Shown: positions 2,822 through 53,085 of the stretch, piece by piece
Position numbering within the stretch: position 1 is the stretch's first letter
How the letters are laid out: each line of letters begins with the position of its first letter
NCBI RefSeq assembly: GCF_001543325.1
Contig: NZ_CP013355.1
Coordinates: forward strand, 310,001-374,000
DNA from: Lutibacter profundi
GTDB taxonomy: Bacteria; Bacteroidota; Bacteroidia; Flavobacteriales; Flavobacteriaceae
Direction of reading: 5' to 3'
DNA length: 64,000 nt
Position numbers and translations under genes: made by a program
The notes under the pieces: generated by a model
What the model was told of the DNA's origin: nothing
Seen by the model: the letters and a program-made list of their open reading frames with translations, nothing else
Databases searched by the model: none

Positions 2822-5083
2822 TTATTCCTCGTACAATCCCATCAACACCTTTTCAGGTGTAAAAGGAGCATCAAATTTTAGTTGATAGTTAGGGTTGAAT
2901 TCTTTTACTGCATTTTGAATGGCAAAATAAGCACCAATACCATACATTAATGGAGGTTCACCAACAGCTTTAGATTTGAATATGGCCTGCTCGTTTCCAA
3001 GAGTTTTAAGAGGGAGTACTTCAATTGTTTTTGGAGCAGAGAACACATCTGGAACTTTGTATGTAGATAATGCATTTGAAAGTAATTGCCCTTGTTCATT
3101 ATAGGAAATTTCTTCTAAAGTCATCCAGCCAATTCCTTGTACCAAAGCACCTTCAACCTGACCTACATCAATACCAATATTCATGCTTTTCCCAAAATCA
3201 TGTACAATTTTCACAGCATCAATTTCATAAGTACCTCTAAGGCAATCTACCGTAACAATAGTAATTGCCGTTCCATATACGTGATATGCAAAAGGATGTC
3301 CTTTTTCTTTGGATTTATCAAAATGAATAATAGGAGTTGCATAATGCGCATTTTCTGAAAGAGCAACACGTTCAAACATAGCCTGTTCAACCACTTTTTC
3401 CCAAGTGAGAGAAGTTTGCTGTTGGTTAGCATATATCATGTTATTTTTAAATTCAATAACATCCTTATCAACAGCTAATAGTGCAGATGCAACAGTTGTT
3501 AACCTGTCAATTAAAGAATTACATGCTTTTAAAACTGCTTTTCCATTTAAATCGGCTGTAGCACTTGCAGCTGTAGGAGAAGTGTTGGCAACTCTTGTTG
3601 TATTTGTAGTTTCCAATTTAACTTTAGAAGTGCTAATACCTAATGTTTCTGAAGCTACTTGTAGCATTTTTGTATTCACACTTTGTCCCATTTCAACAGC
3701 TCCTGTACTTACTCCAACACTACCATCTTGGTAAATATGAATTAAAGCTCTTGCATGGTTCATAGGTGTATTGGTAAATGAAATACCAAAAGTAATTGGC
3801 ATAAAAGACAATCCTTTTTTGTATTGTGCATTTTTATTGTTGAAATTTACTATTTCTTCTTCTAATTTAGCTGAATTAAAGTTGCTTTTTGCAGATGTCC
3901 AGCTATTTTTAATTTCAACTTGCGTTGCTATTTGACCATACGAAAACTCATCATTTTCACTAAGTAAATTTAGCTCTTGAATTTTCTTTTTATTGACTCC
4001 TATTTCTTCAGCTGCTTTGGCAATTGCAGCTTCAATAACAAACATTCCTTGTGGTCCTCCAAAACCTCTAAAAGCTGTATTTGGCGGTAAATTTGTTTTA
4101 CAGCTATGTACAGTTGTAGTTACATTGGGAATAAAGTAACTGTTGGTTGCGTGAAACAAGGTGCGCTCTGCAATTGCAGGTGATAAATCTGCTGCAGCTC
4201 CTGAATTTTGAAGAAATTCAACTTCAAAAGCTTGAATTTTCAACTCTTTAGACAATCCAATTTTAAAAGTAGATTCATACGGATGACGTTTCCCTGTCAT
4301 ACGTAAATCATCGTGGCGATTTAAAATGTATTTTACAGGCTTTTTCAAATTTTGTACCGCAACAGCAGCCATAACCGCCCAAGGTGTTGCCTGATCTTCT
4401 TTTCCTCCAAAACCACCTCCTAAACGAATAACATCAACTTCAATTTTATGCATAGAGACACCTAACACCTTCGCAACTGTTTTTTGAACTGAAGTTGGGC
4501 CTTGTGTTGAAGAAGTAATTTTAATGTTTCCATTTTCCATAGGAATAGCGTAACAACCTTGAGTTTCTAAATACAAATGTTCTTGTCCGTTAGAAAAAGT
4601 TTCACCTTCAATTACATACTTGCAATTTGAAAAGGAAGTGGTTGTATTTCCTAATTTAAATGAACGAGGAGCATTGATAAAACTACCTTTTTCTTTTGCC
4701 TCTTTCGCTGTGGTAATAACAGGTTTTTCATCAATTTCAATGGTAATAAGAGCTCTTGATTTTTTTGCAATAGCTTCAGATGTTGCAACAATAAAAGCAA
4801 TAGGCTGCCCTATAAAATGCACTTCACCTTCTGCCCACAAAGGTTCATCAGGTATAATACCGCCAATTTGATTTTCCCCTAAAATATCTTTATACGTAAA
4901 TATTTTTACCACACCTTCTAAACTTTCCGCTGTAGAATAATCTATATTTTTTATGGTTCCATGTGCTTTTGGGGAATCAAATGTTACGCCATATAAGGTA
5001 CCTTGTAAGGTAGTAATGTCATCTACAAAAAGAGATTCACCTCTAACGTGTCCAAAGGAATCTATATTTTTCATTGTTTTCAT
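2822..5083 (-). CDS. xdhB: xanthine dehydrogenase, molybdenum-binding subunit
   Basis: 753 residues, the usual size of the separate molybdopterin subunit of Rhodobacter-type XDH (about 777). Visible cofactor and catalytic motifs are GGGFGGKEDQ (about 222-231), the RGFGGPQG arginine loop (339-346) that contacts the purine, and AVGEPPL near the C terminus, whose Glu (about 709) is the general base. It oxidizes hypoxanthine/xanthine towards urate. It overlaps the upstream Fe-S/FAD subunit gene by 4 bases (ATGA), so the two are translationally coupled. A second ATG three codons in (MKTMKN) could also serve. No XdhC insertion factor gene is in the window. Confidence 0.88.
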   Translation of the reverse strand: MKTMKNIDSFGHVRGESLFVDDITTLQGTLYGVTFDSPKAHGTIKNIDYSTAESLEGVVKIFTYKDILGENQIGGIIPDEPLWAEGEVHFIGQPIAFIVATSEAIAKKSRALITIEIDEKPVITTAKEAKEKGSFINAPRSFKLGNTTTSFSNCKYVIEGETFSNGQEHLYLETQGCYAIPMENGNIKITSSTQGPTSVQKTVAKVLGVSMHKIEVDVIRLGGGFGGKEDQATPWAVMAAVAVQNLKKPVKYILNRHDDLRMTGKRHPYESTFKIGLSKELKIQAFEVEFLQNSGAAADLSPAIAERTLFHATNSYFIPNVTTTVHSCKTNLPPNTAFRGFGGPQGMFVIEAAIAKAAEEIGVNKKKIQELNLLSENDEFSYGQIATQVEIKNSWTSAKSNFNSAKLEEEIVNFNNKNAQYKKGLSFMPITFGISFTNTPMNHARALIHIYQDGSVGVSTGAVEMGQSVNTKMLQVASETLGISTSKVKLETTNTTRVANTSPTAASATADLNGKAVLKACNSLIDRLTTVASALLAVDKDVIEFKNNMIYANQQQTSLTWEKVVEQAMFERVALSENAHYATPIIHFDKSKEKGHPFAYHVYGTAITIVTVDCLRGTYEIDAVKIVHDFGKSMNIGIDVGQVEGALVQGIGWMTLEEISYNEQGQLLSNALSTYKVPDVFSAPKTIEVLPLKTLGNEQAIFKSKAVGEPPLMYGIGAYFAIQNAVKEFNPNYQLKFDAPFTPEKVLMGLYEE

Positions 5084-50141: not shown

Positions 50142-50540
50142 TTCTAATAATTTTAGTACAAATCTAGTTTTAATACTTAAATTAATTTGCAACCAAAGTT
50201 ACTGCAAAATGAATTGTCAGATACTAAAAATCTGATATCAAATGTGCTATTTTAAATGAATAGATTGATACTTATTAACAATTTAAGATTTTATTTTTTT
50301 AAAAGCGTTATTTTTTTATTCTCATTAAAATTAATACAGTCATATCTAATTTTTTGAATAAAAACAAATTTAAAAATTACTGTAACCCTTTGAAAATAAG
50401 GGTGTATGTAAATTAAATATTGAAATAACAATATTCAATTATATTTTATTTTACGTAAATAACACCTATATAAATGGTTAAAAGTTGAAATTAATTCAAA
50501 GTTTTTAACAAAAAAATTTGTTTGTTTTAATAATTGTATA

Positions 50541-50548
50541 TACATTTG
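50541..50548 (+). promoter_or_regulatory. -7 promoter box (TACATTTG) for the MarR gene
   Basis: Fits TAnnTTTG; a TTTG at 50521-50524 lies 16 bases upstream as a possible -33 element. Confidence 0.5.
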
Positions 50549-50578
50549 ACGTATATACGATAGTAGTATAGATAATTG

Positions 50579-50591
50579 TTGTCCCCCACAA
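50579..50591 (+). repeat. GTTGTCCCCCACAAG hairpin directly before the MarR start
   Basis: TTGT and ACAA pair around CCCCC, one base before the TTG start codon. It carries the same core as the repeats at 52291, 52349 and 52449, so it is listed as a family member and as a possible translational control element. Confidence 0.45.
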
Positions 50592-50592
50592 G

Positions 50593-51039
50593 TTGAATAA
50601 AAATGATAAAAAGGATGAGTTAAACTTACCTGAATTTACAATTGAAAATATATTGCAAACAGGTAACTGGATGAATGAAAATTTTTCAGATCATTTAAAA
50701 CAATACGCTTTATCGATTCAACAATACAAAGTTTTACGTTCTTTAAAAGATTTAAATGGAAAACCTACCGACCTTTTAACTTTGCAGTCTCAAATGGTTA
50801 GTAAAAATAGCAATACTACACGTTTGGTTGAAAAATTAAGATTAAAAGGGTTAATCACAAGGCTGCAAAATGAAGAGAATAGGAGGAAAGTAGATATTAA
50901 TATTACTGAGCTAGGTTTAAATTTATTAGATGAAATAGCTCCAGCTCAATTAAAATTTGAAAAGAGCATTGTAGGTAATTTGTCAAAAAAAGAAATTTTA
51001 AGTCTTAATACATTATTAGAAAAAATTAGGAATAAATAA
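50593..51039 (+). CDS. MarR-family transcriptional regulator
   Basis: 148 residues. Winged-helix blocks: YALSIQQYKVLRSLKDL, DLLTLQSQMVSKNSNTTRLV (recognition helix region), LRLKGLITRLQNEENRRK (wing with conserved Asn-Arg-Arg) and DINITELGLNLLDEI. Start is TTG; the nearby ATG is in another frame. Its ligand and targets are unknown. The neighbouring sequence is rich in repeats and lacks an obvious regulated operon, so it may control itself or a distant gene. Confidence 0.82.
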   Translation: MNKNDKKDELNLPEFTIENILQTGNWMNENFSDHLKQYALSIQQYKVLRSLKDLNGKPTDLLTLQSQMVSKNSNTTRLVEKLRLKGLITRLQNEENRRKVDINITELGLNLLDEIAPAQLKFEKSIVGNLSKKEILSLNTLLEKIRNK

Positions 51040-51172
51040 ATCAACCCAAGATAAAAGGTTATTTTTTAATTCAAATATTTAACCCCTAAATATTTTGTTT
51101 GAAAATAGCTTACAATTAGAATAGTAAGAATGAATAATTAGTAAGAGATTATGAAAAAGTAAATCAACCCTT

Positions 51173-51272
51173 AGAGGTAGTCACACTGTAGTCACATACT
51201 TATAAAGCAGTCCGAAAAGTGCTTTAATAATGTTAGATGGTTAGTAAGAACTTTGTTTCTACCTCTTTTTTT
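51173..51272 (+). ncRNA. possible structured RNA ending in a terminator-like stem
   Basis: AGAGGTAG (51173-51180) pairs perfectly with CTACCTCT (51259-51266), which is followed by T7. Inside are a 9-base direct repeat (GTAGTCACA twice, 51178-51197), a hairpin AAAGCA-TGCTTT (51204-51225) and the block GGTTAGTAAGAA shared with the repeat at 51500. There is no ORF across it. It could be a small RNA or an attenuator between marR and the lipoprotein gene. Purely sequence-based; expression unknown. Confidence 0.4.
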
Positions 51273-51329
51273 AAAATTAAATTAGTATAAAAAGAATAGA
51301 TTAACCCAAACGAGCCAAAACCCCAATTT

Positions 51330-51545
51330 ATGATACCAATTGTTATCACTATCACCATGGCTATTATGTTCTATAATAGCAAGTTTCAAAATAGAAAGAA
51401 CATTTCTAAACGTTTGAAACATTTATATGCAATAATTTTAGCTGATTTAAGCAATTTTTCAAGTGAAAAATTAGCTGAACCTATGTGCATAGTTAAAAGC
51501 AGTCGCAGCATAATTATCAAACCACACCATTCCCACAACGGTTAG
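51330..51545 (+). other. hairpin-dense segment covering a doubtful 71-codon ORF
   Basis: An ATG-started frame of 71 codons exists (MIPIVITITMAIMFYN then basic residues), but it has no recognisable domain. The DNA is packed with perfect hairpins: GCTATTAT-ATAATAGC (51360-51380), GTTTCAAA with nested TAGAAA-TTTCTA and TTTGAAAC (51383-51420), and AATTTTTC-GAAAAATT (51453-51472). The frame ends inside the repeat at 51500. A structured RNA is at least as likely as a protein gene. Confidence 0.4.
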
Positions 51546-51568
51546 TAAGAAGGTAATAGTTGCGACTG
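51500..51568 (+). repeat. hairpin repeat copy 1 (CAGTCGCA ... TGCGACTG)
   Basis: Outer arms CAGTCGCA and TGCGACTG are perfectly complementary; the centre contains TTCCCACAACGGTTAGTAAG. Copies 2 (52316-52397) and 3 (52422-52501) have related ends (ACAGTTGCA/CAACTGT; ACAGCCGCA/ACGACTGT), the same spacing of about 70-80 bases and a related centre. Confidence 0.55.
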
Positions 51569-51605
51569 TATTTTAAATGTATAACCCCTAAAACCCCAAA
51601 CTAGC

Positions 51606-52103
51606 ATGAAAACAATTCATTTTAAACTAGTATTAATTATTATAATTAGTAGTACTGTACTAGCCTCGTGTGCTAAAGAAGATGATGGTATTTATTTTAA
51701 TGAAGTAAATGAAATTAAGGTTTCTTATTCAAAGATAGAGTTAGAAATACTAGACTTAGTAAATAAACACAGAAATTCAATAGGATTAGAGTCTTTAAAT
51801 AAACTTGATGTAATTTCATCTGTAGCACGAAGCCACACATCTTATATGGTTGAAACTGGAAATGTTAATCATTTTAACTTTTCAAAAAGGCAAGAAAATT
51901 TGGTAGTTAATGCAAATGCAAAAACCGTTGGCGAGAATGTAGCATATGGATTTAATTCATCACAAGGTGTTGTAGAAGCATGGTTAAAAAGTGAAAGCCA
52001 TAGAGCTTTAATAGAGAGTGATAGTTATACTCACTTTGGAATTTCTACAGAAAAAAATGCAGATGGAAGAAATTATTTTACACAAATGTTTATAAAACGT
52101 TAA
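51606..52103 (+). CDS. CAP-domain (SCP/PR-1-like) lipoprotein
   Basis: 165 residues. Lipobox VLASC (Cys22) followed by AKEDD, an acidic signal for surface display. The CAP domain has ILDLVNKHRNSIGLESL, ARSHTSYMVETGNVNHFNF (His and the NHxxF block), VGENVAYGF (CAP motif), VVEAWLKSESHRALI and HFGISTEKNADGRNYFTQMF. These cysteine-rich-secretory-protein/PR-1 folds bind lipids or act in interactions; some have been suggested to be proteases. Function here unknown. Sits between hairpin repeats and may be accessory. Confidence 0.82.
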   Translation: MKTIHFKLVLIIIISSTVLASCAKEDDGIYFNEVNEIKVSYSKIELEILDLVNKHRNSIGLESLNKLDVISSVARSHTSYMVETGNVNHFNFSKRQENLVVNANAKTVGENVAYGFNSSQGVVEAWLKSESHRALIESDSYTHFGISTEKNADGRNYFTQMFIKR

Positions 52104-52119
52104 TTAAAAAATATAAATC

Positions 52120-52278
52120 ATGATTTTAATTGAAAATACACCTATAAGAATTAAAAAATCAAATTTGTATATAAAATCAAAGAGTAAAATATACATAAAT
52201 ACATTAGTTCCATACTTTGAGTTTAAAAATAAAATTGGAAGAATTATTAAGGCTAAAAATAATTGTATCTGCTTATAA
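52120..52278 (+). CDS. small lysine-rich ORF (52 residues), low support
   Basis: Starts 17 bases after the CAP gene stop, same direction, coding for MILIENTPIRIKKSNLYIKS and on to NCICL. It is basic and has no recognised domain. The opposite strand also has an open frame here but it begins inside a hairpin repeat and looks like a shadow. Listed because of the close spacing only. Confidence 0.25.
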   Translation: MILIENTPIRIKKSNLYIKSKSKIYINTLVPYFEFKNKIGRIIKAKNNCICL

Positions 52279-52286
52279 AGTAGAGA

Positions 52287-52325
52287 AACTGTTGTCCCCA
52301 TTATAGTTACAATAAAAAAACAGTT
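52287..52325 (+). repeat. hairpin repeat, partial copy (AACTGTTGTCCCC)
   Basis: AACTG and TTGT pair with ACAA and CAGTT with a bulge, around GTTGTCCCCATTATAG. Its right arm is the left arm of copy 2, so the two hairpins are mutually exclusive. Confidence 0.45.
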
Positions 52326-52397
52326 GCAAAAAATCTTTTTGTAATTGTCGTCCCCACAACGGTAGTGTAATAAGATTCTTTATTTACAACTGTTTTT
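52316..52397 (+). repeat. hairpin repeat copy 2 (AAAAACAGTTG ... CAACTGTTTTT)
   Basis: An 82-base hairpin: 11 perfect outer pairs (52316-52326 with 52387-52397), then 10 inner positions with one mismatch (52328-52337 with 52372-52381). The 34-base loop holds GTCGTCCCCACAACGG. It ends in T5 and could also stop transcription. Confidence 0.6.
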
Positions 52398-52421
52398 ATG
52401 TAACACAAGTATATTAATTAA

Positions 52422-52501
52422 AACAGCCGCAATATTTTGAAAAAAACTGTCGTCCCCACGATAATTTTTTAAACTCAATCAATCACGACTGTAAGTTTTT
52501 T
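52422..52501 (+). repeat. hairpin repeat copy 3 (AACAGCCGCA ... CGACTGTAAG)
   Basis: Contains a strong stem: AAAAAACT then GTCGT (52441-52453) pair with ACGAC and AGTTTTTT (52485-52489 and 52494-52501) with a 4-base bulge. The core reads GTCGTCCCCACG. Ends in a T run. Confidence 0.55.
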
Positions 52502-52689
52502 AGCCGTATTATTACAAACATGGTTAAAAAACAAAACATTCTTGAACTTTTTAGGTTTCGTAAATGTAAAATATAACATTCATAAATCCAACTATTTTTA
52601 ATTGTAAATATTTAAACATTTCAACAACTTATTAAAGAAATATTCTTTAAATAGTAATTAGTTTATATTTAATTGTTAATATTGTTTTG
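52502..52689. other. AT-rich spacer before the thioesterase gene
   Basis: No ORF, promoter box or repeat recognised; together with the ORF and repeats listed above it fills the 586 bases between the CAP and thioesterase genes. Confidence 0.5.
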
Positions 52690-53085
52690 ATGCATAAAAA
52701 AATATTCTCTTTCCAATTAACTATAACTAAAGATGTAATAGATGTTTTAAACCATGTAAACAATGTTTATTATTTGCAATGGGTACAAAATGCTGCTCAA
52801 AAGCATTGGGATTTGTTAAGCACCTCAGATTTAAATAATAAGTATGTTTGGATTGTTTTAAGGCATGAGATTGACTATTTATATGCTGTAAAGTTAAATG
52901 ATGAGATAACAATAAATACTTGGATAGAAAATATTTACGGTGTTAAATCTGAACGTATTGTTGAAATTAAAAAAGGAAATAAACTTGTTGCCAAAGCAAA
53001 AACTACTTGGTGTTTATTAGATAAAAAAACTATGAAACCTATTCGAATTCCTTCAGAAATAATAAAACTATTTAAAGCTGTTTAA
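52690..53085 (+). CDS. hotdog-fold acyl-CoA thioesterase (4HBT-like)
   Basis: 131 residues from the ATG at 52690 (a TTG directly before it is less likely). The 4-hydroxybenzoyl-CoA thioesterase pattern is clear: DVLNHVNNVYYLQWVQNAA with the catalytic-type Asp at the start and HVNN, then VLRHEIDYLYAVKLNDEI and TWCLLDKKTMKPIRIP. It cleaves acyl-CoA or acyl-ACP; chain preference cannot be read. Single gene, convergent with the glycosyltransferase. Confidence 0.83.
   Translation: MHKKIFSFQLTITKDVIDVLNHVNNVYYLQWVQNAAQKHWDLLSTSDLNNKYVWIVLRHEIDYLYAVKLNDEITINTWIENIYGVKSERIVEIKKGNKLVAKAKTTWCLLDKKTMKPIRIPSEIIKLFKAV

Follow-up and report, generated by a model that had tools for sequence, protein, structure and literature searches.

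A predicted family of paralogous small RNAs with G-rich loops beside marR and a CAP-domain lipoprotein gene in Lutibacter

Genes and repeated cores at the marR locus

The window analyzed here is a stretch of 64,000 nucleotides of the Lutibacter profundi genome (contig NZ_CP013355.1, positions 310,001 to 374,000), and all positions are counted from its first letter unless stated otherwise. The locus contains, all on the plus strand, marR, an ORF of 71 aa, a CAP-domain lipoprotein gene, an ORF of 52 aa, and a thioesterase gene (from 52687 or 52696). The core GTYGTCCCC occurs exactly four times in the window, always on the plus strand, at 50578, 52291, 52347, and 52449, compared with a mean of 0.12 and a maximum of 1 in 100 dinucleotide shuffles of the window. 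The cluster of four cores within about 2 kb, on which the original prediction was based, is thus far above chance, with one position corrected from 52349 to 52347. The second shared sequence that it named, CCCACAACGG, matches exactly at 51532 and 52353, and three copies do have complementary arms (51498-51571, 52319-52394, and 52422-52493). On both strands, the fold of each hairpin is more stable than that of shuffled sequences (z -3.7 to -5.3). The cores at 50578 and 52291 are lone cores rather than hairpin members; we predict that the lone cores, one in the marR leader and one on the 3' side of the short ORF, are pairing sites of the small RNA (sRNA) described below. In the whole genome, the pattern TGTYGTCCCC has eight copies and a reversed control pattern has two. 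Four of the eight lie outside the window, three of them (genome positions 2438820, 2816209, and 2816301) within the same kind of element and the remaining one in an unrelated setting.

Table 1. Genes and predicted elements of the marR-CAP locus (positions in the window)
Feature	Position	Strand	Remarks
marR promoter (TTTG, 20 nt, TACATTTG)	50517..50560	+	Overlapped by palindromic operator (likely), 50534-50560
C-rich pairing site AATTGTTGTCCCC, marR leader	50574..50586	+	Predicted; 6 nt before TTG start
marR, MarR-family regulator	50593..51039	+	TTG start; Pfam MarR 1.2e-10
Second structured RNA candidate	51173-51273	+	3' of marR; AGAGGTAG...CTACCTCT and T tract
Short ORF, 71 aa	51330..51545	+	C box at 51321-51324
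Hairpin A	51498..51571	+	Same repeat family, plus-strand reading; about 35 nt ahead of CAP gene
Hairpin A loop TTCCCACAACGG	51530-51541	+	Complementary to sRNA loop
Two C boxes in CAP leader (ACCCCTAAAACCCC)	51584..51597	+	
CAP-domain lipoprotein gene	51606..52103	+	Pfam CAP 2.6e-14
Small protein gene, 52 aa	52120..52278	+	Downstream of CAP; motif IYINTLxPxFxYxNxxG
Lone core ACTGTTGTCCCCA	52288..52300	+	Directly after stop of 52-aa gene; possible further pairing site
Predicted sRNA, about 240 nt	52312..52554	-	Two G-loop hairpins, 3' U tract; predicted start
3' U tract of predicted sRNA	52314-52320		A run on the plus strand
3' hairpin B' of sRNA	52320..52393	-	Loop GUUGU-GGGG-ACGAC; terminator-like
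5' hairpin C' of sRNA	52423..52492	-	Loop UCGU-GGGG-ACGA
Predicted sRNA promoter	52560..52591	-	-33 TTG 52589-52591, 20 nt, -7 TACATTTAC 52560-52568

Strand and structure of the predicted sRNA

The outer arms contain three variable pyrimidine-purine pairs each, and these were counted in 71 distinct sRNA-type hairpins, with 12 type-A hairpins kept apart and one divergent copy set aside. In the plus-strand reading, the variable pairs were T-A in 100 cases, C-G in 48, C.A in 63, and T.G in 2. Because a C.A mismatch on the plus strand is a G.U pair on the minus strand, the helix survives in a minus-strand RNA and not in a plus-strand RNA. A wobble asymmetry of this kind can reveal that an RNA candidate was assigned to the wrong strand. 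The RNAalifold consensus of 30 stretches of site 2 (described below) was -28.1 kcal/mol with 37 pairs on the minus strand, compared with -6.6 kcal/mol and 16 pairs on the plus strand. The minus-strand covariance model R2, built from 36 sequences, thinned and hand-picked, plus the window's C copy, scored B' at 73.0 bits on the minus strand and 23.5 on the plus strand, and C' at 64.3 and 27.8 bits, each copy being itself part of the model. The folding energy of C' was -22.9 on the minus strand versus -13.1 on the plus strand. For T tracts (at least 6 T in 8), the counts on the minus and plus strands were 28 and 8 for the 31 B hairpins, 9 and 1 for the 16 C hairpins, and 18 and 13 for the 24 D hairpins. 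As a single sequence, the sRNA stretch of the window beats shuffles on both strands (z -3.56 on plus, -3.63 on minus), since inverted repeats fold on either strand. The plus-strand covariance model R1 was useful for locating copies; its inner P3 helix was dropped on the basis of the wobble counts and the RNAalifold strand comparison.

The loops of the sRNA hairpins are G-rich (GUGGGGACGAC), and the apical domain GTGGGGACGA is constant in 30 of 30 alignment rows for both hairpins. In alignment A8, 96.1% of the cells in the arms and the apical helix are paired, and two-sided changes occur in 28 cells (shuffle mean 10.3). Comparison between genomes shows the strand, structure, and conservation of the predicted sRNA, and the two hairpins at 52.3-52.5 kb appear to be parts of one minus-strand RNA of about 240 nt, whose transcription we infer. 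The original prediction placed all copies in the same direction, which is correct for the letters; as RNA, the copies at 52.3-52.5 kb are minus-strand and the copy at 51.5 kb is plus-strand.

The covariance models of Rfam (release 15) gave no match at E<=5 in 50300-52700, and across the window RNase P and cobalamin alone reached gathering scores. As regards a type I toxin-antitoxin system, in which an antisense RNA represses a small toxic membrane peptide, two small ORFs adjoin the sRNA, and the 52-aa protein, judged by eye, is not evidently hydrophobic.

Promoter of the predicted sRNA

When the minus strand to the right of hairpin C was aligned for 30 loci, a conserved block around TTGGAATTATAAATGTTATATTTTACATTTAC stood out from variable surroundings. 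The pattern TTG-N18-21-TANNTTTR was found upstream on the minus strand in 35 of 108 clusters, some of them A hairpins (mononucleotide shuffles: mean 5.4, largest 13); on the plus strand, 2 of the 108 had it (shuffles: mean 3.5, largest 8). Thirty-two of the 35 matches lie at the same place of site 2, where the pattern is present in 32 of 33 stretches, including all 30 aligned loci; the exception is L092. The part of PMC9723704 that covers F. psychrophilum promoters gives the sigma-A consensus as TAnnTTTG at -12 to -5. The sRNA start would lie about 7 nt past the -7 box. The pattern was absent at site 1 (ompA), and no clear match was found at site 3 (gcvP-pdhA).

Distribution and synteny

A covariance model for the genus was built from 25 copies, of 27 core matches in the input (one cut-off copy was skipped and two gcvP-pdhA copies were left out). 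The model search proposed in the original prediction was thereby carried out and, at E<=5, returned seven places in the own genome, of which the two lowest-ranked were weak. The own genome contains five sRNA hairpins in three places, or six copies counting strong and weak ones. At E<=0.1, 37 of the 38 genomes searched in the genus had the repeat family, with 1 to 7 matches each; all 29 good genomes carry it, and the sole genome without a match is 86% complete. The plus-strand model matched 5 of 199 family genomes, and model R2 matched 7 of 397 genomes (5 of 330 good ones), which belong to 3 of the 237 genera sampled. In the public genome collection, exact 24-base cores fell in 23 stretches, most of them labelled Lutibacter. 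The original prediction had also reckoned with chance similarity, in which case there would be no other copies and no covariation; more copies were found in the genome and in relatives, and the arms covary. Many scattered copies at variable positions, as in REP or other high-copy palindromic repeats, were found neither in the own genome nor across the genus. Viral spread was considered because 12 viral contigs carry GTYGTCCCCACAACGG, and it was rejected because those inspected lack the rest of the element and are chance matches.

The neighbors were identified by tblastn in 100 fetched stretches, and three recurring syntenic sites hold most copies. Site 1 lies beside an ompA-family gene, and in the own genome its hairpin begins 6 nt from the ompA stop. 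Site 2 has the order marR, hairpin A, the CAP gene (in part of the loci), a small ORF, hairpins B and C, and the thioesterase gene. Site 3 has the order gcvP, a terminator, two hairpins, and pdhA. Some stretches have other neighbors (e.g., L091, L125, L127, and L154). In another genus (G345), two tandem copies lie directly after the stop of an ompA-like gene. Both are on the coding strand and have a T tract, as would suit an RNA derived from a 3' UTR; the ompA-site copies would need no promoter of their own.

Predicted pairing with the marR leader

The upstream region of marR is kept in 30 loci of the genus, with the promoter, the palindrome TTGTATATACA-N5-TGTATATACAA, the C-rich end of the leader, and the TTG start. 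The palindrome overlaps the -7 box and is likely to be an autoregulatory operator. We rejected it as a motif common to the elements because, in the own genome, it is present only at marR; many other genera of the family have a similar sequence ahead of their marR homologues. The site AATTGTTGTCCCC aligns in 30 of 30 marR leaders of the genus with single-base differences.

Pairing energies were calculated with ViennaRNA for pieces of the sRNA against 51 start regions of the window. The marR start region ranked first of 51 with the B core (-23.8; mean -9.56, sd 3.38), the C core (-22.1; mean -8.08, sd 3.0), and the 13-mer (-20.8; mean -5.47, sd 3.03), and second of 51 with the full C hairpin. 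The full sRNA barely sets marR apart (-34.9, the next being -32.6). The complementarity at marR is implied by the shared core that led to it, so the strand evidence alone is independent, and it is this strand evidence that makes the complementarity meaningful.

Against the Lutibacter sRNA core, the 30 marR leaders of the genus averaged -24.8 (weakest -19.8), those of other genera gave -35.8 (G345) and -28.7 (G149), and those of g4 gave -19.0 and -16.1. Most of 28 other marR homologues, from RNA-less genera or second copies, gave -7 to -17; the two strongest (-21.4 and -19.6) are as low as the g4 leaders. Paired with their own sRNA cores, the marR leaders gave -25.8 in G149, -31.5 in G345, and -21.3 in G040, and the G425 leader gave -18.4 with the G040 core.

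Hairpin A, the CAP gene, and C boxes

The arms of hairpin A in 29 copies comprise 70 C-G, 9 T-A, 8 T.G, and 0 C.A pairs. This wobble is of the plus type, which places hairpin A on the mRNA strand. The loop sequences of hairpin A (CCCACAACGG) and of the sRNA (CCGUUGUGGG) are complementary. The predicted duplex of the window copy with the B' core is -27.5 kcal/mol, and the copies listed gave -19.5 to -35.0 kcal/mol with the sRNA core. Hairpin A therefore resembles a hairpin in the leader of the CAP mRNA, a partner of the sRNA rather than a member of its family. Complementary hairpin loops are also found in ColE1, where RNAI and RNAII, a sense and an antisense RNA, form kissing hairpins; unlike these, the Lutibacter partners are encoded at different loci and resemble one repeat read on opposite strands.

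A C box, scored as CCCC within 60 nt ahead of the CAP gene, was found for 48 of 53 CAP genes in RNA-bearing genomes (48 of 51 in the first set and, in the second set, 0 of 2 from G040, which has the RNA), compared with 2 of 29 elsewhere (2 of 27 CAP genes of other genera in the second set and 0 of 2 from G217 in the first), with three genes of the second set repeating genes of the first. G217 was counted as RNA-less, as a genus without an RNA match at E<=0.01. Ahead of other ORFs in the stretches, the CCCC box was found in about 4 of 319 (25 CAP genes removed by eye), and in the window, CCCC lies within 45 nt of the start in 2 of 50 ATG-started genes, one of which is CAP. This comparison shows that the sRNA and the C boxes co-occur and that the boxes are rare in RNA-less genera. 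The short ORF has a C box ahead of its ATG in 18 of 20 loci. The possible duplexes of the sRNA with the CAP boxes are short (5-10 bp by eye).

Of the 38 genomes of the genus, 37 have the 52-aa protein family, with 1 to 5 matches each, usually directly 3' of CAP lipoprotein genes (another example is L006, 1653-1841, minus strand). Nothing in Pfam or NCBIfam scored above the cut-off, and the family is undescribed. The CAP gene was dropped as an obligate partner, since one clade without it at site 2 keeps hairpins A, B, and C and mostly the small ORF.

Interpretation and alternative explanations

We consider it about 75% probable that the family consists of paralogous base-pairing sRNAs that repress the translation of marR and the CAP operon. 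The G-rich loops match C-rich stretches immediately ahead of the start codons of neighboring genes, so these genes are probably turned down. Transcription of the sRNA, pairing that begins at the loop, and translational repression are what we infer from sequence. The window would encode one minus-strand sRNA, starting near 52554 and ending near 52312, that converges on the CAP/small-protein operon. It would consist of two hairpins with GGGG tetraloops and end in the second hairpin and a U tract. Sister hairpins are located at the 3' end of an ompA-family mRNA and between gcvP and pdhA. The GGGG loop may nucleate pairing with the C-rich marR leader, forming 13 bp beside the start codon, and may also pair with hairpin A in the mRNA and, more weakly, with the C boxes ahead of the 71-aa ORF and CAP. 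Pairing would block translation initiation and thereby repress marR and the CAP/small-protein operon. More speculatively, two adjacent leader sites, Y and X, might each receive one of the two sRNA hairpins.

A tentative extension, which we would put a little short of even, is that one repeat family supplies both partners: the minus-strand copies as G-loop sRNAs, and hairpin A and the lone cores as targets. The sRNA, MarR, CAP, and the small protein might then form a self-regulated island, spread in the form of CAP/small-ORF units. If so, an sRNA and its target would have arisen from one repeat through use of opposite strands, which is a testable case.

It is unlikely that the hairpins are instead sites or a sponge for an RNA-binding protein that also binds C- or G-rich leaders, without sRNA-mRNA pairing. 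The short, invariant loop and the C boxes of several leaders would suit such a protein, and RbpB of Bacteroides is described, in the part of PMC11697453 that deals with it, as binding a paralogous sRNA family. However, once the strand is corrected, the sRNA loops and the leaders are complementary, not identical. Ordinary intrinsic terminators between genes, some of them bidirectional, are considerably less probable still. T tracts flank the outer arms, on both strands at the ompA site, where the hairpin follows the stop so closely; terminators, however, have no need of a constant apical domain or a private promoter, and the gcvP-pdhA hairpins are already preceded by a separate terminator.

A plus-strand cis element, i.e., the leader or 3' UTR motif that the original prediction drew, is very improbable. 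The neighboring genes of site 2 are on the plus strand, on which the window stretch also folds better than shuffles, and at gcvP-pdhA one exchange within the core, C-G to A-T, suits either strand, but the excess of C.A over T.G and the two consensus energies argue against it, and hairpin A alone acts as a plus-strand element. Least probable of all is a non-autonomous mobile element, REP-like repeat, or recombination site, for which the several loci, the tandem copies beside ompA in some genomes, and the duplication of CAP/small-ORF units (weak matches follow some of them) could be cited, against the low copy number in the own genome, genus-wide synteny, the private promoter, and strand-biased wobble. 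Recombination sites of a known type, the attC sites of integrons, have R' and R'' boxes and come with an integrase. Among the three readings offered originally, regulatory RNAs are favored. The non-autonomous element is disfavored, given few copies that are syntenic across the genus, although tandem duplications do occur locally and there are additional copies linked to CAP.

Comparison with known sRNAs

The base-pairing sRNAs proposed here can be compared with FopS of Bacteroides thetaiotaomicron. The portions of PMC11697453 concerning FopS describe multicopy paralogous sRNAs of about 65-70 nt with one shared 5' seed, which pair beside start codons and target SusC-like genes; nine members are intergenic, four antisense, and one 3'-UTR-derived. 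By that description, the Lutibacter family is similar in having several paralogous sRNAs with one conserved seed, in the predicted pairing of the seed at translation start regions, and in the ompA-side copies, which resemble the 3'-UTR-derived member. It differs in having two G-loop hairpins in about 240 nt and marR and CAP as predicted targets. The likeness would be one of the way of working; membership in FopS proper, marked by the R1/R1' seed sequence and by binding of RbpB, is not claimed.

Rfp18 of Flavobacterium psychrophilum is presented, in the part of PMC9723704 devoted to it, as a structured sRNA in which one stem-loop is the predicted pairing region and which affects protease mRNAs. 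Compared by description, not by sequence, the Lutibacter RNA is likewise a structured flavobacterial sRNA, whereas its predicted targets are marR and CAP. The C-rich sRNAs of staphylococci, such as RsaE, use a short repeated loop motif to pair with the ribosome binding region, according to their treatment in PMC8334554. In that type, as treated there, a C-rich sRNA meets a G-rich Shine-Dalgarno sequence; in Lutibacter, the arrangement would be reversed, with a G-rich sRNA and a C-rich leader. Literature on Lutibacter small RNA, flavobacterial sRNAs, and C-rich sRNAs, mainly open-access papers, contained no earlier description, and the small RNA family appears to be undescribed so far. Base-pairing sRNAs of Bacteroidota outside Bacteroides are poorly mapped, and the present reading, if true, would provide a genus-wide sRNA family with predicted targets and a rule by which G-loops pair with C boxes, the mirror image of pairing by the C-rich Staphylococcus sRNAs.

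Additional observations

In L091 (1479-2933, plus strand, and 3000-3602), three tandem sRNA hairpins adjoin a gene for a 484-aa lipoprotein, the leader of which has two C boxes and may be a further target. L175 contains three tandem CAP/small-ORF units, two of which have G-loop hairpins next to them. The CAP genes of other genera (L284-L310) mostly share another conserved leader, roughly TAATTTTAC...ACCAAATC, ahead of the start; it may combine a promoter with another leader motif. The second structured RNA candidate of Table 1 had no Rfam match, and its single window sequence folds weakly (z -1.36). It is present in 20 stretches, with two-sided changes at 4 of 26 consensus pairs, and shares the motif GGTTAGTAAGAA with hairpin A.
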